This document shows positions 8,262 through 63,885 of a stretch of 64,000 bases of DNA, in pieces. The position numbers were made by a program, and so were the translations under genes. The first letter of the stretch is position 1. Every line of letters begins with the position of its first letter. This DNA is from Nitrospirae bacterium JdFR-85. GTDB taxonomy: Bacteria > Nitrospirota > Thermodesulfovibrionia > Thermodesulfovibrionales > JdFR-85. The notes under the pieces are model-generated. The model saw nothing but the letters and a program-made list of their open reading frames with translations, was not told the origin of the DNA and ran no database searches. The stretch covers positions 31,696-95,695 of the forward strand of contig MTOU01000021.1 in the NCBI GenBank assembly GCA_002011745.1. Direction: 5' to 3'.

Positions 8262-9278
8262 ATGAAACGAAAGTATGTAGTGTTTTTTGTAACAGCCCTC
8301 TTTCTGATGGGGCTGTTTGCTTCCGTTAATGCAGCACAGTGGGCAAATCCGGACCTGCTGGTCACTCCTCAAACCTTAAAACAGAATCTTGGAAAGCCAG
8401 ATTGGGTTGTGGTTGATTGTCGAGACTACAAGAAGTATCTCGCAGGTCATATTCCAGGTGCTGTAAGTTTTGGTAAAAGGTGTAAAAAGGCCTTAAGAGA
8501 CCCTACAAGTAGGGTATGGAAGGATGTCTCAAAATATGAAAAAATACTGGGTAACGTGGGGATAGGAAATGATACGCATGTAGTATTTTATTATGGTGAC
8601 CTTAGAGACATGCCTGATGCATCGGTAGGATTCTGGGTGCTGGAGTATCTTGGACATGATAAGGTCCATGTGCTGAATGGTGGAATTGGGGCATGGCTTA
8701 AGGCGGGTTACAAATTAGAGAAGAAGCCTGTTAAACCTAAACCAAAGACATTTAAAGTGAAGCTACGCAAGAGTGTCTATGCAGATACCACTGAGATACT
8801 TGCCATTGCAGAAGGGAAGAAGAAGGGTGTACAACTTATTGATTCAAGGACAAAGAAAGAGTTTATTGGTAAAGACTGCAGGGCCCTCAGGTGTGGACAT
8901 ATACCAAATGTGACTATAAATGTTTCTCACATTGATACTCTACCCAGAACAGCGAGAGGTGGGATTTTACCAGTGCTTGATCCCAATGTGGTCTCTAAGG
9001 CTTTTGCCAGTCTTGACAAGAATAAGAGAACAATCGCCTACTGTCAGACAGGGACCCGTTCTACCTTGACATATCTTCAGCTGAGGCTTCTTGGGTTTAA
9101 AGATCCTGCAAACTGGGATGAGTCATGGAGAGTATGGGGTTCATCTCTGGAGAACTTCCCGATTGATGCCCCTAATGGTGTTCAGTACTACAACTTTGCA
9201 AAGGTGAACAAACTTCTAAAGAAACTTAAGCATAAAGTTGCTACCTTAGAAAAGAAACTTAAGAAACTCGAGAAGTAA
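8262..9278 (+). CDS. Exported tandem-domain rhodanese (sulfurtransferase) with C-terminal coiled coil
   Basis: Signal peptide MKRKYVVFFVTALFLMGLFASVNAA; two rhodanese domains; active loop CQTGTRS only in second domain; Lys-rich heptads at C-terminus; RBS ggggaggt. Confidence 0.92.
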   Translation: MKRKYVVFFVTALFLMGLFASVNAAQWANPDLLVTPQTLKQNLGKPDWVVVDCRDYKKYLAGHIPGAVSFGKRCKKALRDPTSRVWKDVSKYEKILGNVGIGNDTHVVFYYGDLRDMPDASVGFWVLEYLGHDKVHVLNGGIGAWLKAGYKLEKKPVKPKPKTFKVKLRKSVYADTTEILAIAEGKKKGVQLIDSRTKKEFIGKDCRALRCGHIPNVTINVSHIDTLPRTARGGILPVLDPNVVSKAFASLDKNKRTIAYCQTGTRSTLTYLQLRLLGFKDPANWDESWRVWGSSLENFPIDAPNGVQYYNFAKVNKLLKKLKHKVATLEKKLKKLEK

Positions 9279-45186: not shown

Positions 45187-46188
45187 TTAATCGTAGCCTT
45201 CGAGGGTGAAGGAGGAGAATATCATTGGATAAAGAACTATTAGGAAAAAGACTATAAGCAATAACAGGGCAGTGAGTAACCATCTCCTCTGCCAATGCAT
45301 GAGGGGGACCCCTTCTGCTTTCATTAACTCTGCAAAACCTGGGAATAGTCCAAATACCGTTGCTCCTAAAAGAGTGATATAAAGAGGATATCCCACATAA
45401 TGGTACTCCTTCTGGAGAATATCAAAAGGACAGTGATGGGTCGGAATCTCATAAAAATAAAGAGAAATGAAACTTATTAGAGAAACAATAGAGATAAAAA
45501 AGAATAATATTGCTAAGAAGGCTGTTAAGTATATAAGCCATATTTTTGTGTATCTGTAAGACAGGAAGCCTGTGAGAAAATATGCTGCTACTGTGGCAAA
45601 GAAGGTATACTTCATGGGCCTGATGGGCAGACCTGCCAATGTGCTTGCTATGCCTCTTGAGTTTTCACTGAAAAGGGCACCGCAGCAGGAGGTGATTACA
45701 TCAGGGCTTAAACCCAGAAAGAATTTTATTTCAAAATAAACGTCTAAGATGAAAAGAGGTAGAAAGAGAATGAGAGAGGCATATTTCTTTCTTACAAGAG
45801 GTAGATTCTCTGTTCTCTGGTCAATATAATTGATAAGGATCCAGATCGATGATACAAAGAATATAGTAACTTTCAGTAGCAGTGCCCACCAACCAATAGT
45901 ATTTGCATTTAGAGTGCCTGTGGCACACATTGCTCCTACAAACTGGGTATGTATATCATCAACTGTATAGATAAAAAGAAAAAGGCTCAAGAGATTAATG
46001 GCAAGAACAAAAGCAATCATACTTGAAAGAAGATAGGTCTTTCGTTCAAGGCTCAGCTGTCTTGCAGAGGAACTCTCTCTATCCCAATAACGGATGATTT
46101 TGAACCCCTCATAAGAGCTATACAGGACCATTACTGTAACCAGGGAGGTACCTCCAAGCAGGGCAATTATACCAGGGTGAAGAATCAT
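45187..46188 (-). CDS. Multi-TM membrane protein of unknown function with Cys/His motifs
   Basis: About nine TM segments; GAMCATGTLNANTIGWW, TSCCGALF, THHCPFDILQKEYHYVGYPLY; coupled to ABC ATPase. Confidence 0.85.
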   Translation of the reverse strand: MILHPGIIALLGGTSLVTVMVLYSSYEGFKIIRYWDRESSSARQLSLERKTYLLSSMIAFVLAINLLSLFLFIYTVDDIHTQFVGAMCATGTLNANTIGWWALLLKVTIFFVSSIWILINYIDQRTENLPLVRKKYASLILFLPLFILDVYFEIKFFLGLSPDVITSCCGALFSENSRGIASTLAGLPIRPMKYTFFATVAAYFLTGFLSYRYTKIWLIYLTAFLAILFFFISIVSLISFISLYFYEIPTHHCPFDILQKEYHYVGYPLYITLLGATVFGLFPGFAELMKAEGVPLMHWQRRWLLTALLLLIVFFLIVLYPMIFSSFTLEGYD

Positions 46189-46189
46189 C

Positions 46190-46870
46190 TTACTGTGTCT
46201 CTTTTATCATGCCGTCTCTTAACTCAATTACTCTGTCTACCACACTACTGTCATATACCAAAGGGTCATGGGTTGCAATTATCACGGTCTTGCCACTCCT
46301 TTTTATCTCTTCAATGATTCTCAGAAACTCCTCTGAAAGCTTAGTATCAAGATGAGCAGTGGGTTCGTCTGCAAGAATAATTTCAGGGTCATTAATAAGG
46401 GCCCTCGCAATGGCTACCCTCTGCTGTTCTCCTCCTGACAGATGCTCTACATTGAAATCTGCTCTTTTGCTTAATCTCATGCTTTCCATTACTTTCTCTG
46501 CACGAGCTTTTATCTCTGTCAAGGAGAGTCCTGTAGGATAAAGTGGAAGCATAATATTCTCTCTCACGGTGATTCCCTTCAAGAGGTTGAACTGCTGAAA
46601 CACGAATCCAAAGGTCCTGCGTCTGATTTCTGTGAGAGATCTTTCTGGCAGTTTTGCCACATCCCTACCACTTATCAAGATTCTGCCAGAGGTGGGTCGG
46701 GACATACAACCAATAAGGCTAAGGAGAGAGGTCTTTCCTGAGCCACTCGGTCCTTTTAGAACCACTGCCTCATTTTTGTTTATCCTGAGGGATATCCCCT
46801 TTACTGCCCACACCTCATTAGGCTGACCTGGATTGTACACTTTTGTTACATTCTCAAGTACTACAGTCAT
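46190..46870 (-). CDS. ABC transporter ATPase (MacB/LolD type)
   Basis: GPSGSGKTSLL, VFQQFNLL, LSGGEQQRVAIARALINDPEIILADEPTAHLD. Confidence 0.95.
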   Translation of the reverse strand: MTVVLENVTKVYNPGQPNEVWAVKGISLRINKNEAVVLKGPSGSGKTSLLSLIGCMSRPTSGRILISGRDVAKLPERSLTEIRRRTFGFVFQQFNLLKGITVRENIMLPLYPTGLSLTEIKARAEKVMESMRLSKRADFNVEHLSGGEQQRVAIARALINDPEIILADEPTAHLDTKLSEEFLRIIEEIKRSGKTVIIATHDPLVYDSSVVDRVIELRDGMIKETQ

Positions 46871-48037
46871 TTATCCCCTCATCACCTGGTCAGGCTCTGT
46901 CATGGCCGCCTTCCAAGAAGGCACTATTGTAGAGGCCATATAAGGCACTACTGTGAGAAACAGTAATACAAGGATTTGATAGGCGCTTACATAGGGTGTT
47001 AGCTTCAAAGTAGGGAATACTACTGACCATCCTTTAAGGGCAGTAGATAGCAAGGGTGCTCCAAAGAAGAACACGTGCATGTATCCACCAATAAGACCGG
47101 TGAAGAAAGAGAGTGAAGAGAGAACAAATCCCTCCCAGAACTTCAGTTCCATTATATCCGAACTCTCCCATCCTATGGCCTTTAGTATTCCTATCTCTCT
47201 CCTTTCTTCTGCAGAAAGCCCTGTTGCCTTATCCCAGGCAAGTATTACAAATGCCACCACTGCTGCAATAAACATTGTGAGTATCATTCCACTACGCCAG
47301 TCAAAAAGAGACTCATATGTTCTAAGAATCTCCTCTCTTGTTATAGGTCTTGTAGAGGGGAACAGTTTTTTGATCTTCTCTGCTACTGTCTCAATCTCTT
47401 CTGGATTGTAGACCTCTACCACAATATCAGTGGCAAACCCTGTAGGTATCTGAAAGAGTCTCTTTATATCATCATTACTCAGGATAATAAGGTCATTGGT
47501 CAGAATATCTGAGGCTGTCTTAAATATACCTGCAATCTTGAAGGTATAACTGATTCCATCTGCCCCGATAATAGTGATTCTATCTCCCACCTCAGCGAAA
47601 TATGCCTTAGCCACTCCTTTACCCACAATGCATACCCCTTTCTGCTCAGAAAAGAAACTTTTCCCTTCTAAGATCTCAATCTTCCTGAGCATATCCCTAT
47701 TTGCTCCTAAGAGGGTGTAATTTGCTCCAATAAAAGGGTCATAATAGTAACCCCAGTACCGGGGTTCTACTTTTCCGACACCTGGTATAGTCTTTATTTT
47801 ATTTATATACTCAACAGGTATAAGTTCATGCCTCCCTGCGACAGTCCTCTGTACAGTGATCTCTGGGGCTCCTTGAAGGATCTCTATGGCCTCTTTTTTG
47901 AGTGCATAGGTAAGAAGTAGTATAGAGGATAATATAAACACGAGTAGAGAGAAGGCAAAAAGTAGGGCAAGATTCTTATACTTTCTTCTGCAGAGACAAG
48001 AGAGCGCAAATTCAAGAATCATTAAATGACGCCTCAT
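46871..48037 (-). CDS. MacB/FtsX-type ABC transporter permease
   Basis: N-terminal TM, MacB_PCD-like periplasmic domain, AEERREIGILKAIGWESSDIM and C-terminal TMs. Confidence 0.93.
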   Translation of the reverse strand: MRRHLMILEFALSCLCRRKYKNLALLFAFSLLVFILSSILLLTYALKKEAIEILQGAPEITVQRTVAGRHELIPVEYINKIKTIPGVGKVEPRYWGYYYDPFIGANYTLLGANRDMLRKIEILEGKSFFSEQKGVCIVGKGVAKAYFAEVGDRITIIGADGISYTFKIAGIFKTASDILTNDLIILSNDDIKRLFQIPTGFATDIVVEVYNPEEIETVAEKIKKLFPSTRPITREEILRTYESLFDWRSGMILTMFIAAVVAFVILAWDKATGLSAEERREIGILKAIGWESSDIMELKFWEGFVLSSLSFFTGLIGGYMHVFFFGAPLLSTALKGWSVVFPTLKLTPYVSAYQILVLLFLTVVPYMASTIVPSWKAAMTEPDQVMRG

Positions 48038-48339
48038 TTGACCGCCTCCAAAGGCCTTCTGAAATGGGGTGGAGGAGAGAGTACCGAACCCGCTGGGAAA
48101 TGTTCTAAACAGGATGGACAGTCCTGAAAGGCACTAAAGATATCAGTCTGCGAAGGATGTCTTGTATATCTTGCTTCAGTCCATATAGCAAGGTCTGTTG
48201 CAGTCAGGCCCTGACAGAGTTGTCTGAGATATTTCATCTCATCAATCCTTGTGTTTATGGAGATATAGCTGAAAAGTAAAATTCCTATCAGTAGAAGAAG
48301 CTCTACAATGAAGATCCCTATGAATACTTTGTATTTCAT
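48034..48339 (-). CDS. Small membrane-anchored protein with CxxC motif
   Basis: N-terminal TM; C-terminal AFQDCPSCLEHFP; coupled to permease. Confidence 0.75.
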   Translation of the reverse strand: MKYKVFIGIFIVELLLLIGILLFSYISINTRIDEMKYLRQLCQGLTATDLAIWTEARYTRHPSQTDIFSAFQDCPSCLEHFPAGSVLSPPPHFRRPLEAVK

Positions 48340-48350
48340 AAATTTTTATG

Positions 48351-48386
48351 AGAGAAAAGAAGCGGATTTATCCGCTCCTTTTCTCT
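48351..48386 (-). terminator. Hairpin between nosL and the downstream ABC genes
   Basis: agagaaaagaagcggatttatccgctccttttctct: near-perfect inverted repeat with one mismatch in the stem. Confidence 0.6.
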
Positions 48387-48392
48387 ACTGAA

Positions 48393-48908
48393 CTACATAT
48401 GCTCCATCTGCATATGTTCCATCTTCATCTTTTTCATCTTCATTTTGGGAAGTACATTAGGAGTTATTTCAGAAAACTGGAGCATTTTCTTGCCCTTGTG
48501 GTCTTTCATGAATATCTCTGCTTTTTCTTTGCCCTTTACAGGAATGAGTTCCATACCCATAGGACCATAAACATCACTTCCGATAACAAAATATAGATCC
48601 TTATCATCTGCCTTTACCATTTTTGTTGTGTAGTATTCTGTTACATATATGGCATCAATCTGGTCTGCACTTTTGCCATACTTTCCCAAGTTGAAATAGT
48701 ACCTGAACATGTCCTTGGGTCCATCAAATGCAACGTATGTACCATCCTTGAATAAAATCTCTGCTACCCATTTGGGATACTTGGATACAATCATTCCACA
48801 TACTGGACACTTGTCTTTTGGTCCAGGTGTCACTGGTTCTGATGCCCATGCAAGGGCGAAAACTCCCAATAAAAGTAATACAGCCAGTATTATATAGACT
48901 TTTCTCAT
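48393..48908 (-). CDS. nosL: NosL-family copper-binding protein with Met/His-rich tail
   Basis: CPVCGMIVSKYPKWVAEI, FDGPKDMFRYY; tail MKMKKMKMEHMQMEHM; start set at ATG 48908 after RBS aggagg (ORF track extends to 48953). Confidence 0.88.
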   Translation of the reverse strand: MRKVYIILAVLLLLGVFALAWASEPVTPGPKDKCPVCGMIVSKYPKWVAEILFKDGTYVAFDGPKDMFRYYFNLGKYGKSADQIDAIYVTEYYTTKMVKADDKDLYFVIGSDVYGPMGMELIPVKGKEKAEIFMKDHKGKKMLQFSEITPNVLPKMKMKKMKMEHMQMEHM

Positions 48909-48972
48909 AAGAAACCTCCTATTAATGTATTCTAAGGGGTAAGACCCCTCCAAATAAATATTATGATGAGGT

Positions 48973-49341
48973 TTATCTTGAGGGACAGGGTGGTTTGAAG
49001 TGTTCCTGAGAAAGGATAAATCTCTTATAGGTTTCTCTATTTAGTATAATCGTACTTACAGAAAAGACTACAAGGACTACTGTAATAGGAACAAATACTT
49101 CAGAGTTGTATCCGAAAGTAGAAGATTTTTTATTACATATATCAGGTAAGATTCTTAAATTATGTTTAGAAAGATCGTTTCTTGACTTAATAAAAGTAAC
49201 CCCTGAGAAAAGAAGTCCTATAACTATCACAGGTATCAGAATAAGAAATATCCTTCTGACCCCTGTTATTCTGGATTCTCCCTTCTTCTGCACAGAAGGA
49301 CTCCTTTTCCTATCTGTGGCCTCTCTTCCTCCCAGCACCAT
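48973..49341 (-). CDS. Hypothetical protein with two predicted TM segments
   Basis: ORF upstream of nosL, same strand; IFLILIPVIVIGLLFSGVTF and VFVPITVVLVVFSVSTIIL. Confidence 0.5.
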   Translation of the reverse strand: MVLGGREATDRKRSPSVQKKGESRITGVRRIFLILIPVIVIGLLFSGVTFIKSRNDLSKHNLRILPDICNKKSSTFGYNSEVFVPITVVLVVFSVSTIILNRETYKRFILSQEHFKPPCPSR

Positions 49342-49754
49342 GTTTTTTTCTCTCTTAATTGTATGGTTCGGATTTAAATATTTAAAAGTTTACATTATCA
49401 ATATCTTTTATTTCAATTTTGTCTTTCAGTATGATAAAAATTTTAAATTTAACCATTTAAAAAATTAATTTGTATAAGGCTATCAGGAATCTTTAAAATA
49501 TGTTTAAATAATTTAATAGGGTGGGGTGAAAGTGGATAGAGCCTGTGATGGAAGAAAATCAGGCAGTAGAAGAGGGGAAGGGGTAGGTATAAGTATGAAC
49601 CTATTTAAGAAGTTTAACCTAATATCTAAGAAAGGGAGGTGAGAGGCGACAGAACAGGATATAGCAAAAGACATAAGTCATTTCACTACAACCTGCACGC
49701 AAAATAAAAACAGAAAATTAAACAAAATCCTAAATAATAAGCTGGGAGGTAGGT

Positions 49755-50843
49755 ATGAAGAAGAAACTATTTTTCCTTACTCTAATAGTAGCCTTAATAG
49801 CTGCAGGTCTTATTCTTCAAAGTGGAGAAGAGAGGGCAACGGCTGCAAAGAAAGTATATGAAGGAACCCTTTATGTTGCTGGTATGGGTGGCCATTTTGC
49901 TGTTGCTGATGTAGTAATTGATCCCAGTGATACTGAACAGCCTATAAAGGTAAAGAACTTAGACAAGATTGATATTGGAACTGCAAAGACCCATCCTACA
50001 CATGATCCCAGAATTGATAAAAACAACAGAAGCATTATGTTCTGGTCCACATATAAGTATGATCCCAATGGGAATCTCCATGTGGGCAAGACAGACCTGA
50101 AGACTGGTAAAGTTATAAAAGATGTTGCTCTTCCCAGGCCTGATAGGGCCAAGAAGGTGGTAGCTAACTACTGCGGTTCAGGTCAGTCAGACAAATACTA
50201 TATGCCTGTGTCCATGTCTGATGAGGGTTATATTGATGTGTTTGATAAAGAGACCTTGGAGCTCAAACATCGTATCTGGGTTTCAGAGCTGGGTTATAAA
50301 CCTGGCACCTATACATTTGCCCATGGAACAAACACTCCAGATGGTAAGTACTTCCTTTTGACACTAAATCTCACTCCTACAGGCTGGACAAAGTGGACAG
50401 GAAATACCCAACTCATTCTGCTTGATATGAAGGCCCTTGAGCAAGGAAAAGCCAAGAAAGTGGCAGAGGCTACCATTACTGGAATGGCAGGAAAGACTAT
50501 TACCTTCAGGCAGTACTTCACCAACAATGGTAAATACCTCCTGCAGTCAGGTGCTGACAGGGGTTATCTCATCGATGTGAAGACCCTTAAGGTTCTGGAT
50601 GAGATAGCACCTCTTCCTGGTGAGAACCATGACATAATACCCACCCCCGATGACAAATATGGCATTATGACTCTGAGGCAGAAGATCAAACACAAGGGTA
50701 AAGAGATAGTTGATGGAACTCTCCTGTTGTATGATATCGAGGCAAGAAAGACCATAGGCAAACCTACTTCAGTCTGTTATCCTTGTCATAAGTACTTCGG
50801 AAAGAAGGCTGTACTCTGTGGAATCGAGGCAAACTGGAAGTAG
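49755..50843 (+). CDS. Exported beta-propeller-like protein with C-terminal CxxCH (putative c-type heme) motif
   Basis: Signal peptide; repeated blade-like segments (LYVAGMGGHFAVADVV, GYIDVFDKETLELKH, GYLIDVKTLKVLDEI, GTLLLYDIEARKTIG); C-terminus SVCYPCHKYFGKKAVLCGIEANWK; RBS gggaggt. Confidence 0.85.
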   Translation: MKKKLFFLTLIVALIAAGLILQSGEERATAAKKVYEGTLYVAGMGGHFAVADVVIDPSDTEQPIKVKNLDKIDIGTAKTHPTHDPRIDKNNRSIMFWSTYKYDPNGNLHVGKTDLKTGKVIKDVALPRPDRAKKVVANYCGSGQSDKYYMPVSMSDEGYIDVFDKETLELKHRIWVSELGYKPGTYTFAHGTNTPDGKYFLLTLNLTPTGWTKWTGNTQLILLDMKALEQGKAKKVAEATITGMAGKTITFRQYFTNNGKYLLQSGADRGYLIDVKTLKVLDEIAPLPGENHDIIPTPDDKYGIMTLRQKIKHKGKEIVDGTLLLYDIEARKTIGKPTSVCYPCHKYFGKKAVLCGIEANWK

Positions 50844-50857
50844 TTAGAAGGTTCTGA

Positions 50858-50888
50858 GGCGGGGAAGCATATTTCTCTCTTCCCCGCC
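50858..50888 (+). terminator. Hairpin after beta-propeller gene
   Basis: GGCGGGGAAG-N11-CTTCCCCGCC then cctttccttc. Confidence 0.65.
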
Positions 50889-50977
50889 CCTTTCCTTCAA
50901 AGTCTCTGAACCCCTTTTAAAATCTCCTAAGACAAGGATTCTCTCAACTTAAGAGAACCTGGATGGGGGCGTAGAAA

Positions 50978-52168
50978 GTGAGATTTAGCATCCATACAGT
51001 AGCTATAAAGAATCTGAGGAGGAAACCCTTCAGGAATGCTGTCCTTGTGTTATCTATAGCTCTGCTTGTCTGTTTGCTTGTATTTGCTGTCTCCTTCAGT
51101 ACAAGTGTGAGTTCAAGTATAAAAAAAGCGACGGCTAGGCTCGGAGCTGACCTGATTATTGTGCCTACAGGTGCAGCAGGCTTTGCACAGGATTTCCTCC
51201 TTGAGGCAGAAAGAAAGTCATTTTATATGCCCAAGAGCGTTATTGAAAAGGTAAAGAAGATAGAAGGGATAAAAAAGGTCACCTATCAGACATATCTACA
51301 GACGATTCCAGGTGTCTGTTGTGATGTGGCACAGACACAAGTTATAGCCTTTGACCAGGAGACAGACTTTATTGTTAAACCGTGGCTGCAGAAATCCATA
51401 GGCCGTCCGCTCAAAAGTGGTGAGGCTATTGCTGGATATGAGACAGCAGAGAACCTTGGATTGGGTCTTCTTGAGGTTGAGAAGACCATATTTAACAAGC
51501 AGTTCAAAATAGTAGGTGTACTTGAGAAGACAGGTACAGGGCTGGATAATGCATTATTTATGACAGAGAAAGACTTAGAAAAGATTGTTGCATCAGGTGA
51601 TTCTCCTGTTAAGAAAGATATGATATCTATTATCTTTGCAAGAGTAGATGGTTCCCTCGATCCTTATCATGTGGCCTTAGAGGTAGAAGGGAAGGTTAGA
51701 GAGGTGGATGTGGTACCGAGAAAGGAGATGGGTAGAGAGCTTCTTAATACCCTTCAGGATATAAATAAGATATTTCTTATCTCCATAATAATAGCCTCTG
51801 TTCTTACAGTCTTCCTCACTTGGGCGATCTTTTCCGCGATCGCAAATGAAAGGGCAAGAGAGATCGGGATTATGCGTGCAATAGGTGCAAGACAGTCTCA
51901 TATTGTGAAGGTCTTCATCTTAGAGGTGATGCTCCTTGGAGGCGTAGGGAGCTTTATGGGTATGAGTGCAGGCCTATATCTGTCGCTTATACTCACCAAG
52001 GGATTCAGTTTATTGAAGAAGATGCCAGCAGATATTAGTCTGCCTGAACAGATCCTTATAGCCATTATGGGTATCCTCTTAGGGGTATCTATCTGTATTG
52101 TAGGAGCATTAGTGCCTGTAAACCAGATCAAGAAGAAAGAGCCGCTTCTGGCGATAAAGGAAGAGTAA
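50978..52168 (+). CDS. MacB/FtsX-type ABC permease
   Basis: GTG start; AIKNLRRKPFRNAVLVLSIALL, NERAREIGIMRAIGARQSHIVKVF; Cys pair TIPGVCCDVAQT in the external domain. Confidence 0.93.
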   Translation: MRFSIHTVAIKNLRRKPFRNAVLVLSIALLVCLLVFAVSFSTSVSSSIKKATARLGADLIIVPTGAAGFAQDFLLEAERKSFYMPKSVIEKVKKIEGIKKVTYQTYLQTIPGVCCDVAQTQVIAFDQETDFIVKPWLQKSIGRPLKSGEAIAGYETAENLGLGLLEVEKTIFNKQFKIVGVLEKTGTGLDNALFMTEKDLEKIVASGDSPVKKDMISIIFARVDGSLDPYHVALEVEGKVREVDVVPRKEMGRELLNTLQDINKIFLISIIIASVLTVFLTWAIFSAIANERAREIGIMRAIGARQSHIVKVFILEVMLLGGVGSFMGMSAGLYLSLILTKGFSLLKKMPADISLPEQILIAIMGILLGVSICIVGALVPVNQIKKKEPLLAIKEE

Positions 52169-52169
52169 G

Positions 52170-52871
52170 ATGGCACAGGTGGAGGCTTTAAATTTAACCA
52201 AGATTTATACAATAGGAGATGAAGAGATCATGGCAGTTAACAATGTCTCCCTGAGTATCCAGAAGGGGGATTTTATCTCTATTGTAGGACATTCAGGCTC
52301 TGGTAAAACCACGCTTTTGTCAATGATAGGTGGAATCCTGAGACCCACATCGGGTAGAGTTCTATTTGAAGGTGTAGATATATGCTCCCTTGATGATGAT
52401 AGCCTATCAGATCTTAGGAATCAGAAATTCGGTTTCATATTTCAGGCTGCCACACTACTGCCTACTCTCACTGCAAAAGAGAATGTTCTGCTGCCTGTAG
52501 CCTTTGGTGGTTGGAGAGATACTGTGGATACCAAGATTGAGGAAAGGGCAGTAGAATTACTGAAACTGATCGGACTGGAAGAGAAGATTGATGCCTATCC
52601 CTCACAACTTTCAGGAGGACAACAGAGACGTGTGGCTATAGCAAGGGCATTGATAAATGAGCCTCAGTTAATACTGGCTGATGAGCCTACTGGTGATCTT
52701 GATGAAGAGACAGAGGCAGAGATAATAGGACTTTTTCATAAGATCAACAGACAGTGGGGGACGACCTTCATAATAGTAACTCATAGTCTGGACATAGCAA
52801 GACAATGTAAGAAGGTATACAGAATGAAGCAAGGAACATTGAAGGAAGAAATCACAGAGTATACAGCCTAA
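52170..52871 (+). CDS. ABC transporter ATPase (MacB/LolD type)
   Basis: GHSGSGKTTLLSMIGG, LSGGQQRRVAIARALINEPQLILADEPTGDLDEET. Confidence 0.95.
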   Translation: MAQVEALNLTKIYTIGDEEIMAVNNVSLSIQKGDFISIVGHSGSGKTTLLSMIGGILRPTSGRVLFEGVDICSLDDDSLSDLRNQKFGFIFQAATLLPTLTAKENVLLPVAFGGWRDTVDTKIEERAVELLKLIGLEEKIDAYPSQLSGGQQRRVAIARALINEPQLILADEPTGDLDEETEAEIIGLFHKINRQWGTTFIIVTHSLDIARQCKKVYRMKQGTLKEEITEYTA

Positions 52872-58335: not shown

Positions 58336-58797
58336 TTATCTTGCAATCAATACAGGAACCTTGGCATTGTTGGCCACTTCTCTACTTACACTCCCCATAA
58401 ATAAACGAGAGACCCTGGTGCCTCTTGAGCCCACAATGATCAGATCAACACCTTCCTCTTCTGCTGTGTTTAGTATCTCCTCTGCTGGATGACCTGCCTT
58501 AATAACCGTTTTTATTCCCTTTATTCCAGCATCTTCAAGTAATTTCTTGTAATGTCCAACAATTGCCTTTGCCTTTTTGTCCAAAGCTTTCTTATATTCT
58601 GTACCTTCCATTACTTCTTTTAAGGTAGCCAGTTCTGCTTCACTCAGCATTTCATCTATTAAAGACCTGCCCTCAAGTTTCTGCACATGAAGCAATATAA
58701 TACTTTCAGGCCTTACAGAGGGGAACAGTTGTATAAATCTGTCAATAATAGTTCTTGAGCCTTTTGTGTCATCTACAGCAAGTAAAACTTTTTTCAT
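58336..58797 (-). CDS. Universal stress protein (UspA family)
   Basis: VLLAVDDTKGSR, GVDLIIVGSRGTRVSRLFMGSVSREVANNAKVPVLIAR. Confidence 0.95.
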   Translation of the reverse strand: MKKVLLAVDDTKGSRTIIDRFIQLFPSVRPESIILLHVQKLEGRSLIDEMLSEAELATLKEVMEGTEYKKALDKKAKAIVGHYKKLLEDAGIKGIKTVIKAGHPAEEILNTAEEEGVDLIIVGSRGTRVSRLFMGSVSREVANNAKVPVLIAR

Positions 58798-58823
58798 TTA
58801 AACCTCGATTATTTTTTAAATTT

Positions 58824-59120
58824 TTAATGTCCAGGTGCTCCATAGCCTCCCATGGGTGCTCCATAGCCTCCTGCGGGTGCTCCATAACCTCCTGCGGGTG
58901 CTCCATAACCTCCTGCGGGTGCTCCATAACCCCCTGCAGGCGCTCCATAACCTCCTCCAGGGGCTCCATAGCCGCCTGCCTCTCCTCCATATCCACCTGT
59001 TGCTGGACCCGTTGCTGGGGCTCCTGAGATATCTATATTACGAGGCGCGAGACTATAACCCATTAGAAACCCTAATATTCCTACCAAAATCACAACAACA
59101 ACCCATACACTTGTTTTCAT
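58824..59120 (-). CDS. Membrane-anchored Gly/Tyr/Pro repeat protein
   Basis: N-terminal TM VWVVVVILVGILGFLMGYSLAP then six to seven GGYGAPA repeats; RBS ggaggaga. Confidence 0.8.
   Translation of the reverse strand: MKTSVWVVVVILVGILGFLMGYSLAPRNIDISGAPATGPATGGYGGEAGGYGAPGGGYGAPAGGYGAPAGGYGAPAGGYGAPAGGYGAPMGGYGAPGH
58831..58978. repeat. About seven copies of a 21-bp coding tandem repeat
   Basis: tgcgggtgctccataacctcc and close variants in direct succession. Confidence 0.9.
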
Positions 59121-59148
59121 ATATCTCCTCCCTCTAAATTTTTAAAAG

Positions 59149-59400
59149 TTACCCTCTCTCAATTTTCAGTATTATCTTTCCAGCCTCTGTCCTTTCCTCC
59201 AACACCTCATGTCCTGCCTGCTCACACATCTGCATAATAGTCTCTTTTGAAGAAGGATTGTCAAAGATAACCTCCAGAATTTCACCTTCTTTCATTTTCT
59301 CCAGAGACTTCTTTGTGTAGATCTGGGGATGGGGACAGACATATCCACATACATCGAGAACATAAGTACCATCACCTGTCTTCTCAAACTTTACTGCCAT
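59149..59400 (-). CDS. tusA: TusA-family sulfur carrier protein
   Basis: LDVCGYVCPHPQIYTKKSLEKMKEGEILEVIFDN (CPxP motif). Confidence 0.94.
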   Translation of the reverse strand: MAVKFEKTGDGTYVLDVCGYVCPHPQIYTKKSLEKMKEGEILEVIFDNPSSKETIMQMCEQAGHEVLEERTEAGKIILKIERG

Positions 59401-59440
59401 CTTTTTAACCTCCTTTTTGATTTTTTATTTTAATTTTACT

Positions 59441-60934
59441 TCAAAAACTCTCTAATTCTTTTGCCATCTTTCTTTCAGTCCACCAGTTAAAGAACTTTAC
59501 TCCAATGAATGCACCGAGTACCATTCCTGTTCCATATACCCACCCATTAGGGTCACCACCTGCAGCCCTTATAAAGAAGGCACCTATGTTACATCCGAGA
59601 GAAGGTCTTGAGCCAAACCCCATCAACAATCCACCCAAGATACCCCATACATATAACTCTCCTTTGGGCCATTTAAACCTGAATTCATTCTGCAGACGGG
59701 CCATTACCATGGAACCAAAGATAATACCCAGTGACATCCAGAGTGCAGGATTACGCCACAGTTCAGGGATACCATTCACATATCCAAAGAAGATATTGTC
59801 ATGCATGTTCCACCCAAACTTTTCCAGTATCCAAGCTCCAAACTGTGCCTCCTGGCTTGTAATATACCAGTATCCAGGATCAAAGACCGTATTTCCTACT
59901 GTAACATCACCCACAATCTCACGGATAGAGGAGAGTTTAGGAACAAAATTGGGATCATATAGCTTGGCTCTGGCTGAGAGATCCAGCCCATGTCCCATCC
60001 TGGTCAGAAGCTGTCCAAAGTTGTTTACACCGAATTTTACCTGCATTCCCTTCATAACAAGTATATGGAGACCTGCAGTAATACCAATAAGCACTCCCAT
60101 TAAAGAGGTTCTCTTTGAGGCAGTAATCATATTCCATATACCTGCAAGTTCATCACCCAGTCCTGTCTTTCCTTTCTGTTTTCTCCTCTTTTTAATGAAT
60201 CCCTTTCTTGCCCACTTCATATATACAACTATCAATATTAAAGTGGCTGGTAGGATGGCATTTATAAGAGAATTACCTATGAAATAATGTATAGTAGTGG
60301 GATGACCATTAGATATAAGCTTAGCTATTGTATACTGGGGTTTGTTCCATACATAACCTGCCAGATACCTGTCAAACCAACCACTCTCCATTATATAAGG
60401 TGGTATCCATTTCTTCTGCATTGCTGACTCAACCCAGGACTGTGGAAGAAGCTTGTCGAATACACCTCCAACATCTACAAATATTGCCTGTCCAAGAGAG
60501 AGTCCAAAAATCACTGCAAGAATGGAGGTTCCATTACCTTCACCTATTTTGTAGAGAGAACCTGAAGCACATCCACCCGCAAGAACCATTCCTATACCAA
60601 AGATTGTTCCTGATATTAACATATGAATACCAAAAGGAGCAGGATGGAATGTACTCATATTAGTTGCTGAAAGGACTGCCTGAACAATACTAAAAAAGAC
60701 AAGTGCTATCATTATCCCCACTGCCATTCGGGGAACACCTGCAGCAAATAAGTCCCTGGAAGCAGATGCAAAACAAAACCTTCCATACTGGAGCATCATA
60801 CCATAAGCAAAACCAAACCAGATATAAACAATCAGATAGATATAATAAATGTTAACCTTATAATAAATGAAACTGATGAGCAAGAGGGCTCCCATAATAA
60901 TGTATGCCCACATCTGATTTCTCTTTTCTTCCAT
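59441..60934 (-). CDS. YeeE/YedE-family (thiosulfate/sulfur-compound) transporter, fused two-domain form
   Basis: GYGMMLQYGRFCFASASRD-type segment, GTIFGIGMVLAGGCASGSLYKIGEGNG, GFGSRPSLGCNIGAFF; many TMs. Confidence 0.93.
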   Translation of the reverse strand: MEEKRNQMWAYIIMGALLLISFIYYKVNIYYIYLIVYIWFGFAYGMMLQYGRFCFASASRDLFAAGVPRMAVGIMIALVFFSIVQAVLSATNMSTFHPAPFGIHMLISGTIFGIGMVLAGGCASGSLYKIGEGNGTSILAVIFGLSLGQAIFVDVGGVFDKLLPQSWVESAMQKKWIPPYIMESGWFDRYLAGYVWNKPQYTIAKLISNGHPTTIHYFIGNSLINAILPATLILIVVYMKWARKGFIKKRRKQKGKTGLGDELAGIWNMITASKRTSLMGVLIGITAGLHILVMKGMQVKFGVNNFGQLLTRMGHGLDLSARAKLYDPNFVPKLSSIREIVGDVTVGNTVFDPGYWYITSQEAQFGAWILEKFGWNMHDNIFFGYVNGIPELWRNPALWMSLGIIFGSMVMARLQNEFRFKWPKGELYVWGILGGLLMGFGSRPSLGCNIGAFFIRAAGGDPNGWVYGTGMVLGAFIGVKFFNWWTERKMAKELESF

Positions 60935-60977
60935 TCCCTCTACCTCCTCCTTTCTGATAAAATTTTATGTAATGTTA

Positions 60978-61001
60978 AAGAAGAGTGAAAAAAATTGTCA
61001 A
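60978..61001 (-). promoter_or_regulatory. Candidate sigma-70 promoter for the YeeE/YedE-tusA operon
   Basis: Minus strand TTGACA (60996-61001) and a TTAACA/TAACAT -10 box 17-18 bp downstream. Confidence 0.6.
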
Positions 61002-61004
61002 CTA

Positions 61005-61022
61005 AGAAAGATTAATCTTTCT
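61005..61022. promoter_or_regulatory. Perfect 18-bp palindrome AGAAAGATTAATCTTTCT abutting the -35 box
   Basis: Read directly; lies between divergent YeeE/YedE and DUF1858-like genes. Confidence 0.6.
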
Positions 61023-61107
61023 ATAATTTTATTTAATACTTTATCTGAAATTATATCTGAAAGTAAAAATAATTTGCAAGTAATTCTTTTCAGAAGGGGG
61101 TGAGGGT

Positions 61108-61323
61108 TTGTCAGAGTTAGAGGAGATAACAGCTTCTACGAGAGTGGTAGACATTATTAAGAACTTTCCTGAGCTCACAGAGTATTTCCTACGAATGGGT
61201 ATCTGTGGTTGTGGATATGCATGGGAGAGTGATTATTATTGGAGTATGGAGAAGGTGGCAAAAGAAAAGAAGCTGGATTTAAATAAACTTCTTGATGAGT
61301 TAAACAGGATGATTCAGTCATAG
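61108..61323 (+). CDS. DUF1858-like small protein with putative redox-active Cys pair
   Basis: TTG start with RBS; STRVVDIIKNFPELTEYFLRMGICGCGYAWESDYYWSMEKVAKEKKLDLNKLLDELN. Confidence 0.75.
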   Translation: MSELEEITASTRVVDIIKNFPELTEYFLRMGICGCGYAWESDYYWSMEKVAKEKKLDLNKLLDELNRMIQS

Positions 61324-63020
61324 AATACTCTTACTATTGTTTTATATCGGAAGACTCCTTCAGTGGTGGAAAATGTTATGGAATGTGTATAAGGGCTGAT
61401 CTCCTGTTCAATATAATCAGGTAGAGAAACCTCAGTACTGTCTGATATTATTAGTACGGCTGTAGAGGCTTTTGTATAAGAGATGCTTTGGTAGTAGCGG
61501 GGGATTTTATACTCCCATGTGAATCTCAAGGGTGATGTTTCAATTGTTCTCTGGGGAGGGGAGAGGTTGTTGCCTCTGTAATAGAGTATGTTTTTCTCAG
61601 TAAAGATATCTAAAATTGGTACAGATATTGCGTAATTAAGCAGAGGATACTGAAGGTGGTTGTCTTTCTGCAATGTAAAGACCTTTACATTTTCTATGCT
61701 CAGGGTATTGAGAAACTCACCTGCCCTCATTAGGTTAACAGTACTCATCTTCTGTAGAAAGGGAAGATATGCAGAATATCCTATTGTAAGAGAATAGACC
61801 AAGATAGAAAGAACAAAGAACCTCTTGAGTCTTCTTCCATGAATACTCTGGAGGCCATAAGAGGCCAGCAAGACAAGCATAGGAAAAGCCATTATTATAT
61901 ATCTTATTCTTTTTATCTCAAGTAGAAACACAAGTAGCAAAGGCCATGCTGCTATTAAAAATTTACTGTCTTTATTTTTAAGGGCTATATATATAGAATA
62001 TACTGCTATAGCAGTTATAAATGGATGTGTCTGGAAGAGAAAGGTTGAGATGAAGCCCTCCTCCCATCGTCTCAACCCAGGCCTCTGGTAGGTGAAAAGG
62101 AGTCTGATCTGTTCTGAAAACACTTCAAGATTGGACAGAAGAGTCCCTCCTATTAAAAAAGCTGACAATACTGCTACTGGAATTACAGTAAAGGGCTTTG
62201 ATTCTTTGAAATACAGTACAAGAAATATAACTCCCAATACAGAGAGCATCAACCAGGTGGAATACTTGGAGAAAAAGGCCAGAAATATTGATATTGATGA
62301 GAGAACTATCATTTTTGGACCATCCTTATGAAGGGCATTTATAAAGGTGGCTACAGCGAGAGTAAAGAAGAACATAGTAGGAATATCTACAAGCATGAGA
62401 GGCACCTGAGAGAAGAGGTATGGGATGCCTAAGAGCAACAGGCCCGCATAAAATCCTGTTTCTCTGTTCCAGAGTAATTTTCCAATATAGTAGATACATA
62501 CAGTGGTGCCTGAGAAGAACAGGGTTGTAAGTATCTGTATATAAATCCTTTTTTCTCCAAAAAATTTAAAAATCAGGCCATAAAGGAAGGGAACAAGAGG
62601 CATATCAGTCCACGCAAAGATCTCTCTACCCCATTGTCTAAGGAAGTATCCAATCCCAAAGAGCTCAAGATGTTTGGCCTGGGTAAAATACCTTGAGGCA
62701 TCTACAATAACCTCTGGTGTAAACCAAAATCCTATTGATACAGTAAAAGAGAATAAGAATAAAAGAAGAGGATGGTAATAGTCATCGAAGGGGATTGCAG
62801 AGGCCAAAAAAGCCCCTCCAAGGCCTATAAGTAGAAGAACAAAGACTTTGACATGATTGATGTGTAAGAAAACCCATTGCCAACTTGTGAGTTTATTGTC
62901 GTCTATATTACGAAAAATGAAAAGAAGAAGAAAAAGGATAAGGGTTAAGAAAGAGATAATAAAAAAACAGGAGACATCTACTGTCTCCTGTTTTTCATTA
63001 AGAACAATAAATCTTTTCAC
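61314..63020 (-). CDS. Family 39/83-like membrane glycosyltransferase; start uncertain
   Basis: Many TMs; PLVPFLYGLIFKFFGEKR, TVCIYYIGKLLWNRETGFYAGLLLLGIPYLF. GTG start at 63020 overlaps a terminator. Confidence 0.8.
   Translation of the reverse strand: MKRFIVLNEKQETVDVSCFFIISFLTLILFLLLFIFRNIDDNKLTSWQWVFLHINHVKVFVLLLIGLGGAFLASAIPFDDYYHPLLLFLFSFTVSIGFWFTPEVIVDASRYFTQAKHLELFGIGYFLRQWGREIFAWTDMPLVPFLYGLIFKFFGEKRIYIQILTTLFFSGTTVCIYYIGKLLWNRETGFYAGLLLLGIPYLFSQVPLMLVDIPTMFFFTLAVATFINALHKDGPKMIVLSSISIFLAFFSKYSTWLMLSVLGVIFLVLYFKESKPFTVIPVAVLSAFLIGGTLLSNLEVFSEQIRLLFTYQRPGLRRWEEGFISTFLFQTHPFITAIAVYSIYIALKNKDSKFLIAAWPLLLVFLLEIKRIRYIIMAFPMLVLLASYGLQSIHGRRLKRFFVLSILVYSLTIGYSAYLPFLQKMSTVNLMRAGEFLNTLSIENVKVFTLQKDNHLQYPLLNYAISVPILDIFTEKNILYYRGNNLSPPQRTIETSPLRFTWEYKIPRYYQSISYTKASTAVLIISDSTEVSLPDYIEQEISPYTHSITFSTTEGVFRYKTIVRVFYD
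62963..62995. terminator. Bidirectional Rho-independent terminator downstream of the DsrE-like genes
   Basis: AAAAACAGGAGACA-TCTAC-TGTCTCCTGTTTTT, perfect 14-bp arms with A/T tracts on both sides. Confidence 0.85.
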
Positions 63021-63025
63021 AAGCT

Positions 63026-63328
63026 TTAGAGTACTATCACCTTATCAGCTTCATGCTGCATAACTGCATTGTTGTACTGACTGCCACATACTACCTTTTC
63101 AGGAATACCACTCTTGTCGATTCCGAGACCAGTTGCATTATGGTCACAGAAACTCATATCTACTCCTTCAAGTTTACTCAACTCTGTATACTTTGGATTC
63201 TCCAGCAGTTTTGTACCTGTATCCATTGTAAAGATAATAACCTCATGTCCCCTTGCCAGGGCAGCTTTTGTGATCCCAATGACATCATCAAGATGCTTGT
63301 CTGTATTAACGAATATTCCTAATTTCAT
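63026..63328 (-). CDS. DsrE-like protein
   Basis: MKLGIFVNTDKHLDDVIGITKAALARGHEVIIFTMDTGTKLL ... VDMSFCDHNATGLGI with DsrE-position Cys; GSQYNNAVM. Confidence 0.85.
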   Translation of the reverse strand: MKLGIFVNTDKHLDDVIGITKAALARGHEVIIFTMDTGTKLLENPKYTELSKLEGVDMSFCDHNATGLGIDKSGIPEKVVCGSQYNNAVMQHEADKVIVL

Positions 63329-63355
63329 TTTATTACCTCCTTAGATAAGCTTAAT

Positions 63356-63523
63356 TTACCATGAAATAACTTTATCACTCGATTCAATGAGTTCAACAAT
63401 CTGATCATAATTTTTATTTTCTCTTAAATCAACAACTGTTACTTCGTGTGATTTTTTATGTTCCTCCATAAACTTCTTTGCTGTGTCATCAGGGTCCTGT
63501 TTTAAGAGATATAGGATTTTCAT
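63356..63523 (-). CDS. DsrH/TusB-like small protein (55 aa)
   Basis: Absent from ORF track (length cutoff). Hand translation: MKILYLLKQDPDDTAKKFMEEHKKSHEVTVVDLRENKNYDQIVELIESSDKVISW; RBS aaggaggt. Confidence 0.7.
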   Translation of the reverse strand: MKILYLLKQDPDDTAKKFMEEHKKSHEVTVVDLRENKNYDQIVELIESSDKVISW

Positions 63524-63540
63524 GATTACTTTACCTCCTT

Positions 63541-63813
63541 TCAGTAAGGTATTATGTGATCATACTCTAAGAGTTTCTGGGCTATCTCTTCAGTGGAAAG
63601 ATACTGCATATCTTCATTGTCTTTACAGTTGGTGTAAAGGCCCATTTCCATATCTTTTATTGTTTCCAGATTCAGAGTATTCTGCTCATTCTCTTCCACT
63701 TTCCTGTCCAGTACATAAACATCGATGATGTCATCCATAAGAGTAATACCCACAGCCATCCTCAGTGCCTCATCCTGTCTGTCCCTGACCAATATTGCAA
63801 TCTTCTTAGCCAT
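63541..63813 (-). CDS. DsrE-like protein
   Basis: MAKKIAILVRDRQDEALRMAVGITLMDDIIDVYVLDRKVEENEQN; RBS gaaggaggt. Confidence 0.75.
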   Translation of the reverse strand: MAKKIAILVRDRQDEALRMAVGITLMDDIIDVYVLDRKVEENEQNTLNLETIKDMEMGLYTNCKDNEDMQYLSTEEIAQKLLEYDHIIPY

Positions 63814-63856
63814 CTCATAACCTCCTTCTTTTATTCCTTAAAGTTAAAGTTTATAT

Positions 63857-63885
63857 ATTTTATTTAACATTCTACTTTAAGTCAA
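63857..63885 (-). promoter_or_regulatory. Candidate sigma-70 promoter for the DsrE-like operon
   Basis: Minus strand TTGACT-N17-TAAAAT, upstream of the RBS/ATG at 63813. Confidence 0.7.

Follow-up and report, generated by a model that had tools for sequence, protein, structure and literature searches.

What does a cluster of YeeE/YedE, TusA and DsrE genes do in a bacterium of the phylum Nitrospirota? The question is raised by a block at positions 58336–63885 of a 64,000-nucleotide stretch of contig MTOU01000021.1 from Nitrospirae bacterium JdFR-85 (the whole stretch is called the window below), which an earlier note had likened to the YedE-TusA-DsrE (YTD) clusters proposed as markers of sulfur disproportionation. 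We verified the block, and every gene that the note had listed (yeeE/yedE, tusA, two dsrE-like genes, a dsrH-like gene, a DUF1858-like gene, and a gene for a repeat membrane protein) is present close to where it had been placed; a 568-residue GT-C fold glycosyltransferase and a universal stress protein (Usp) had been missed. Our answer is that the block is likely to be a module for sulfur uptake and relay that feeds the Dsr pathway, with DsrAB working in the oxidative direction and with the GT-C enzyme and the repeat protein, here called the Gly/Tyr protein, as dedicated partners at the outer face. We infer the direction of flux, the substrate, and the roles of the GT-C and Gly/Tyr proteins.

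The assembly (2.33 Mb in 47 contigs, reported as 100% complete) encodes dsrA-dsrB-dsrD-dsrN, identified from their sequences (dsrA by TIGR02064), as well as aprBA, qmoABC, two sat genes, and a DsrC that retains both C-terminal cysteines (its end reads ACRYAGLPKPTGCV) and whose gene is followed by a dsrM-like gene; we call the dsrAB pair reductive-type from the presence of dsrD alone. The lack of dsrAB in the window, on which the earlier note had remarked, is therefore real but misleading, and the apr, sat, and dsr genes that it had proposed to look for were found elsewhere in the genome. Because the genome has this complement, the likeliest assignment is an oxidizing relay from TusA through DsrEFH and DsrC to DsrAB, or else the oxidative half of disproportionation. 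All relay residues are present, namely Cys54, Cys122, and Cys448 of YedE, the CPHP motif of TusA, Cys61 of DsrE, and both C-terminal cysteines of DsrC. The two sat genes differ from each other and lie on one contig (G000:C9; L201 4855–6120 and 16299–17510); one of them accompanies apr-qmo, and the other is close to a membrane pyrophosphatase.

Among 198 sampled Nitrospirota genomes, 35 encode a YedE of the window's type, and dsrA scored above cut-off in 31 of these (Fisher p 1e-9, relatedness not corrected); the remaining four genomes are 70–85% complete. Likewise, dsrA was above cut-off in 12 of 14 holders tested via named loci, and one further holder gave a partial match. The spread among non-sulfur organisms that the earlier note had thought might undermine its proposal was thus not seen. 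A genome of the same genus (G154) has the cluster ~2.3 kb from dsrAB. Many genomes with dsrA lack the cluster, and one small-genome family (f6) is without it throughout.

In the relay that we favor, YedE would pass reduced sulfur (thiosulfate, or sulfane sulfur or polysulfide) through the inner membrane along its three cysteines, TusA would accept sulfur on the cysteine of its CPxP motif, and Cys61 in the DsrE subunit of DsrEFH type II would receive it and pass it to DsrC. The DsrC persulfide or trisulfide would then be converted to sulfite by reductive-type DsrAB running backwards, and the sulfite to sulfate via AprBA-QmoABC and Sat. With an external electron acceptor, the outcome would be sulfur oxidation; without one, these steps could form the oxidative arm of disproportionation. 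We guess that the Gly/Tyr protein may hold or organize elemental sulfur (S0) or polysulfide at the mouth of YedE, in the manner of sulfur-globule envelope proteins, and that the GT-C enzyme may glycosylate the Gly/Tyr protein or the nearby envelope. The features of the block are as follows.

63857–63885, minus strand: promoter-like site for dsrF-H-E, TTGACT-17-TAAAAT, a match to consensus alone (10/12)
63541–63813, minus strand: DsrF-like subunit of DsrEFH type II (a conserved hypothetical protein, CHP, of YTD clusters), 90 amino acids; relatives with synteny and a clear Shine-Dalgarno site
63358–63523, minus strand: DsrH-like subunit of DsrEFH type II (likewise a YTD CHP), 55 amino acids; conserved beside DsrE in relatives
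63026–63328, minus strand: DsrE of DsrEFH type II, Cys61 predicted to be catalytic; PF02635, 3.9e-5, above cut-off
62962–62996, minus strand: hairpin followed by a T run, putative terminator or attenuator; 15-pair stem just 3′ of dsrE
61314–63020, minus strand: GT-C fold glycosyltransferase, predicted to depend on polyprenyl phosphate, ArnT/PMT_2-like, 568 amino acids; PF13231, 5.9e-11
61108–61323, plus strand: small DUF1858 or redox-disulfide-like protein with a GICGCG motif and a TTG start; Pfam 5.2e-5 and TIGR03980 7.7e-5, both below cut-off
60972–61001, minus strand: promoter-like site for yedE, TTGACA-18-TAACAT, a match to consensus alone (10/12)
59441–60934, minus strand: predicted YeeE/YedE-type sulfur importer, 497 amino acids; PF04143 (Sulf_transp), 1.6e-41
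59149–59400, minus strand: TusA sulfur carrier with a CPHP motif; PF01206, 7.7e-23, and TusA-type relatives in the PDB
58824–59120, minus strand: protein with a single transmembrane segment and a Gly/Tyr-repeat tail; from sequence, composition, and a 21-bp tandem repeat
58336–58797, minus strand: Usp, the final gene of the unit; Pfam Usp, 3.8e-26

The minus-strand genes are transcribed in the order dsrF, dsrH, dsrE, GT-C gene, yedE, tusA, Gly/Tyr gene, and usp, and the DUF1858-like gene occupies the plus strand in the gap ahead of yedE. Gene order, conservation, and Shine-Dalgarno sites are concordant over dozens of genomes, and the block is therefore more than a chance assembly. The contig and the window both end 187 bp upstream of dsrF, so what precedes that gene is out of view. 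The hairpin (62996–62962) lies directly after dsrE and within the 5′-most codons of the GT-C gene, and the region 62950–63005 has a folding energy of −22.1 kcal/mol (z −6.25). The GT-C gene has a GTG start 5 nt past the dsrE stop and no clear Shine-Dalgarno site, and it is probably translationally coupled to dsrE. The hairpin and this start together suggest that dsrF-H-E is a separate unit, that the GT-C gene is reached by read-through or translational coupling, and that yedE-tusA-Gly/Tyr-usp is a second unit. The number of promoter-like sites in a consensus scan of the region was near that in shuffles.

The order (tusA2)-dsrF-dsrH-dsrE-GT-yedE-tusA-GY-usp, where GT and GY denote the GT-C and Gly/Tyr genes, recurs around YedE of the window's type, for which 80 loci came from named genomes of Nitrospirota, Desulfobacterota, Actinomycetota, Rokubacteria, Pseudomonadota, and unplaced bins. 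Counting for GT-C, Gly/Tyr, and Usp only those loci with enough flank, an upstream GT-C gene is present in 52 of 64, among them all 25 from outside Nitrospirota, the Gly/Tyr gene is downstream of yedE-tusA in 71 of 71, and Usp is present in 55 of 58 loci from Nitrospirota, Desulfobacterota, and unplaced bins and in 0 of 13 from Actinomycetota, Rokubacteria, and Pseudomonadota. TusA adjoins this YedE in nearly all loci, and the DUF1858-like gene recurs in the same slot on either strand. The GT-C protein, YedE, TusA, and the Gly/Tyr protein form a recurrent block that spans at least five phyla, with Usp added in Nitrospirota and Desulfobacterota. As a control, 20 Nitrospirota loci centered on DsrE away from this type of YedE gave one Gly/Tyr match, which stood beside another GT-C/YedE pair.

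A profile built from 32 members found 45 GT-C copies in 40 of the 198 Nitrospirota genomes, including 34 of the 35 with YedE of the window's type (Fisher p 6e-31, again with relatedness uncorrected), and 34 of the 45 copies adjoin dsrE or yedE. We had considered that the GT-C gene might be a chance insertion dividing the cluster; its recurrence over many loci and phyla ruled this out. In four genomes (G122, G124, G162, and G184), a GT-C gene adjoins DsrE together with a YedE of a different subfamily. The AlphaFold2 (AF2) model of the GT-C protein (pLDDT 91.8, pTM 0.93) matched the ArnT structures 5f15 (E 3.1e-8, TM 0.50) and 5ezm (E 6e-8) best in the PDB, followed by other GT-C enzymes. Asp40, Asp107, Asp139, Asp212, and Asp471 are invariant in 32 sequences, and Asp107, in the first outer loop, is equated with the catalytic aspartate of ArnT by position only. 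ArnT/PMT-type enzymes share the predicted fold and invariant aspartates with the window protein, which is only ~12% identical to them and belongs to a subfamily of its own that is strongly conserved and linked to sulfur genes.

The Gly/Tyr tail has eight GGYG motifs at a seven-residue period, encoded in the 21-bp tandem repeat, and consists of 40% Gly, 21% Ala, 14% Pro, and 11% Tyr, with no Cys. By a rough count, tails of this family nearly always contain some Ser or Thr, which makes their O-glycosylation possible. In Allochromatium, small exported structural proteins, namely the sulfur globule proteins SgpA–D (PMC10386293), are linked to Dsr-based sulfur oxidation. Their likeness to the Gly/Tyr protein is one of composition, with no homology shown, and they have cleaved signal peptides, whereas the window protein carries membrane-anchored GGYG heptads.

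Cys61 of DsrE is invariant in 13 of 13 aligned sequences, and the only sequence match of the DsrE profile in the PDB was a weak one to Allochromatium vinosum DsrE (2hy5_A, E 0.11). The DsrF-like protein is 49–87% identical to 12 relatives with synteny, its 90-residue frame had no Pfam match, and its AF2 model is a confident alpha/beta fold (pLDDT 90.9). A PDB fold search with this model, tried as proof of a DsrEFH-type fold, returned no significant match; 2pd2 (TM 0.60), which we take to be a DsrE-family entry, was one of many alpha/beta folds listed. The DsrH-like protein is kept beside DsrE in 12 relatives, with Ile3, Leu4, Asp50, Val52, and Trp55 invariant. PDB profile searches for these two proteins gave nothing useful. 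Models built on both matched the small partners of DsrE at every one of 16 Desulfobacterota loci, with E 1e-22 to 3e-4, and in the window and its relatives three syntenic DsrEFH subunit genes are linked to tusA and yeeE/yedE. Other arrangements were also seen: dsrE-F-H followed by a short (~290-residue) YedE at L163, L167, L169, and L171, among them a complete 2.37-Mb genome (G014), and dsrE-F-H followed by a divergent 470-residue YedE and TusA at L166, L168, L170, L177, and L182, with Usp in most and without a GT-C or Gly/Tyr gene.

YedE is the only protein of its kind in the genome by PF04143 search. Cys54, Cys122, and Cys448 are invariant in 15 sequences, and its profile aligns with the TsuA structures 6leo, 6lep, 8j4c, and 8k1r (E down to 4.7e-27) with the cysteine motifs in register. 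The TsuA-TsuB system (YeeE-YeeD; PDB 6leo, 8j4c, 8k1r) shares the family, the three motifs, and a TusA-like partner; by contrast, the window protein has 497 residues rather than ~340, its middle region does not align, and its setting is one of dissimilatory sulfur metabolism. It scored far under the cut-offs of the NCBIfam TsuA equivalog models (104 vs 400 bits and 66 vs 645 bits). In a quick tree with five Desulfobacterota YTD YedE proteins as reference, YedE of the window's type formed one clade (36 rows, SH-aLRT 100, long branch) separate from these. Within it, the window protein shares 89% identity with its counterpart in JdFR-81 (L033, G176), a bacterium of another family of the same class, and yedE-tusA-GY-usp (58336–60934) resembles the JdFR-81 genes; genomes of the same genus and family have another YedE subclade. 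The GT-C and DsrE trees do not track the YedE tree. Simple vertical inheritance and transfer of the whole cluster both conflict with the match to JdFR-81 and these discordant trees. Because YedE groups with a bacterium of another family while the other two trees differ, the history of the cluster looks mosaic, or half of it may have moved horizontally.

How close, then, is the block to known sulfur clusters? The published YTD order is yedE-tusA-dsrE-chp-chp (Umezawa et al. 2020; described in PMC9751629, PMC8780430, PMC12998232). Every published component is present in the window, where a pair of small conserved proteins accompanies YedE, TusA, and DsrE, and to that extent the resemblance drawn by the earlier note stands. 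The comparison of gene order that it had proposed did not yield a match, however: the window reads dsrF-H-E, GT-C, yedE-tusA, Gly/Tyr, usp, with three or four extra conserved genes and with YedE in a separate clade of the quick tree. The third of the conserved hypothetical proteins chp1–3 in PMC12998232 might be one of these extra genes. A study of cable bacteria assigned DsrE, CHP1, and CHP2 of YTD clusters to the sulfurtransferase DsrEFH type II and demonstrated persulfide transfer along TusA-DsrEFH-DsrC in vitro (PMC13293266; Plum-Jensen et al. 2026). A conserved cysteine in DsrE, two small partners, the link to tusA and yeeE, and a genome with reductive-kind dsrAB are common to that system and ours, which probably represents subtype 1 (mostly Nitrospirota) of PMC13293266 and differs in the subunit order F-H-E and in the GT-C gene that splits it from yedE-tusA. 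A literature search that left out Umezawa 2020, other subscription papers, and supplements found no glycosyltransferase or Usp in YTD clusters; within that literature the extended block seems undescribed, and the core system is already known (2020–2026).

Desulfobacterota underline the difference. A DsrE match was found in 23 of 148 genomes and was more divergent than those of Nitrospirota, and the GT-C protein in one, the centre genome of the search (G198). That genome has the GT-C/yedE/tusA/Gly-Tyr/usp block, with a divergent tusA-dsrE-F-H set ~4 kb away. At 15 other Desulfobacterota DsrEFH loci there was no GT-C or Gly/Tyr gene, and any yedE within reach was of another type, in open frames of 399–423 amino acids. 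Separately, four Desulfobacterota loci (L106, L115, L117, and L128) have a GT-C/yedE block with a divergent tusA-dsrE-F-H set 4–5 kb off.

Several points weigh against a relay into an oxidative Dsr pathway. That reductive DsrAB can run in reverse is yet to be proven at the enzyme level, and thiosulfate failed to load cable-bacterial TusA or DsrEFH II in vitro (PMC13293266), which leaves the substrate of YedE uncertain. Six GT-C-positive genomes are without YedE of the window's type, and in three of them the GT-C gene adjoins DsrE and another YedE. The same genes would also suit sulfur trafficking in disproportionation, a role in biosynthesis, or detoxification. In the first of these cases, the cluster would be a dedicated module for S0 or thiosulfate disproportionation, with YedE-TusA-DsrEFH supplying both arms, and the organism would live by it. 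YTD genes occur in all surveyed S0 disproportionators of Desulfobacterota and Nitrospirota (PMC12998232), they are up in Desulfolithobacter under thiosulfate disproportionation (PMC9751629), and the JdFR-85 genome has sat-apr-qmo-dsr as disproportionators do. Set against this, DsrEFH II is present in only 25 of 63 cultured disproportionators, and many sulfate reducers unable to disproportionate have it (PMC13293266). The marker status cited by the earlier note is accordingly disputed, and PMC12998232 treats YTD as a leading candidate in Desulfobacterota and Nitrospirota but not as a marker alone. The YedE of the window also appears, from the quick tree, to be of a different type from that of Desulfobacterota YTD clusters. 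Moreover, the cluster is held by Nitrospiraceae bacterium Ngb-4 (L094), presumably a sulfate reducer. We regard a dedicated module as unlikely; disproportionation by this organism is possible and is not implied by the cluster.

A role in sulfur assimilation or in tRNA or cofactor thiolation, with an envelope-glycosylation gene nearby by chance, seems very improbable to us. Relatives of TsuA/TsuB and TusA do serve in these processes in E. coli, and Usp and GT-C enzymes are generic families, but the strong tie to dsrA and the presence of DsrEFH speak for dissimilation, and recurrence of the GT-C gene in at least five phyla excludes chance adjacency. A less easily dismissed alternative is that the GT-C and Gly/Tyr proteins serve at the cell surface, for instance in attaching the cell to S0 or minerals, as a module that is co-regulated with sulfur uptake and has no direct part in the relay. 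The outer face is where GT-C enzymes work, and the tail of the Gly/Tyr protein is predicted to be extracytoplasmic. In addition, a strong predicted terminator divides dsrFHE from the GT-C gene, and in several genomes that gene is located elsewhere; the position of the Gly/Tyr gene after yedE-tusA in 71/71 loci argues instead for a tight link with YedE-TusA, and we rate the surface module as possible but not probable. More speculative, and in our judgment improbable as a whole, is the specific proposal that the GT-C enzyme and the membrane-anchored Gly/Tyr protein are a dedicated envelope device of dsrAB carriers in several phyla for sulfur in solid or chain-like form, which would capture or hold S0 or polysulfide on the outside of the membrane for YedE-TusA-DsrEFH II in sulfur-globule-like fashion.

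Elsewhere in the window, an exported double-rhodanese-like protein (8262–9278, plus strand) is encoded ~50 kb off and outside the cluster, and genes for a NosL-like protein, several FtsX-type ABC transporter units, and an exported beta-propeller-like protein are clustered at 45187–52871.

For the uptake and relay module that we favor, these comparisons caution that a YTD match alone should not be taken as disproportionation, and they set the Nitrospirota-type system apart from the YTD clusters of Desulfobacterota. For the route by which sulfate reducers and disproportionators bring insoluble or chain-like sulfur inside and onto DsrC, the conserved block offers two new candidate parts, the GT-C enzyme and the Gly/Tyr protein.

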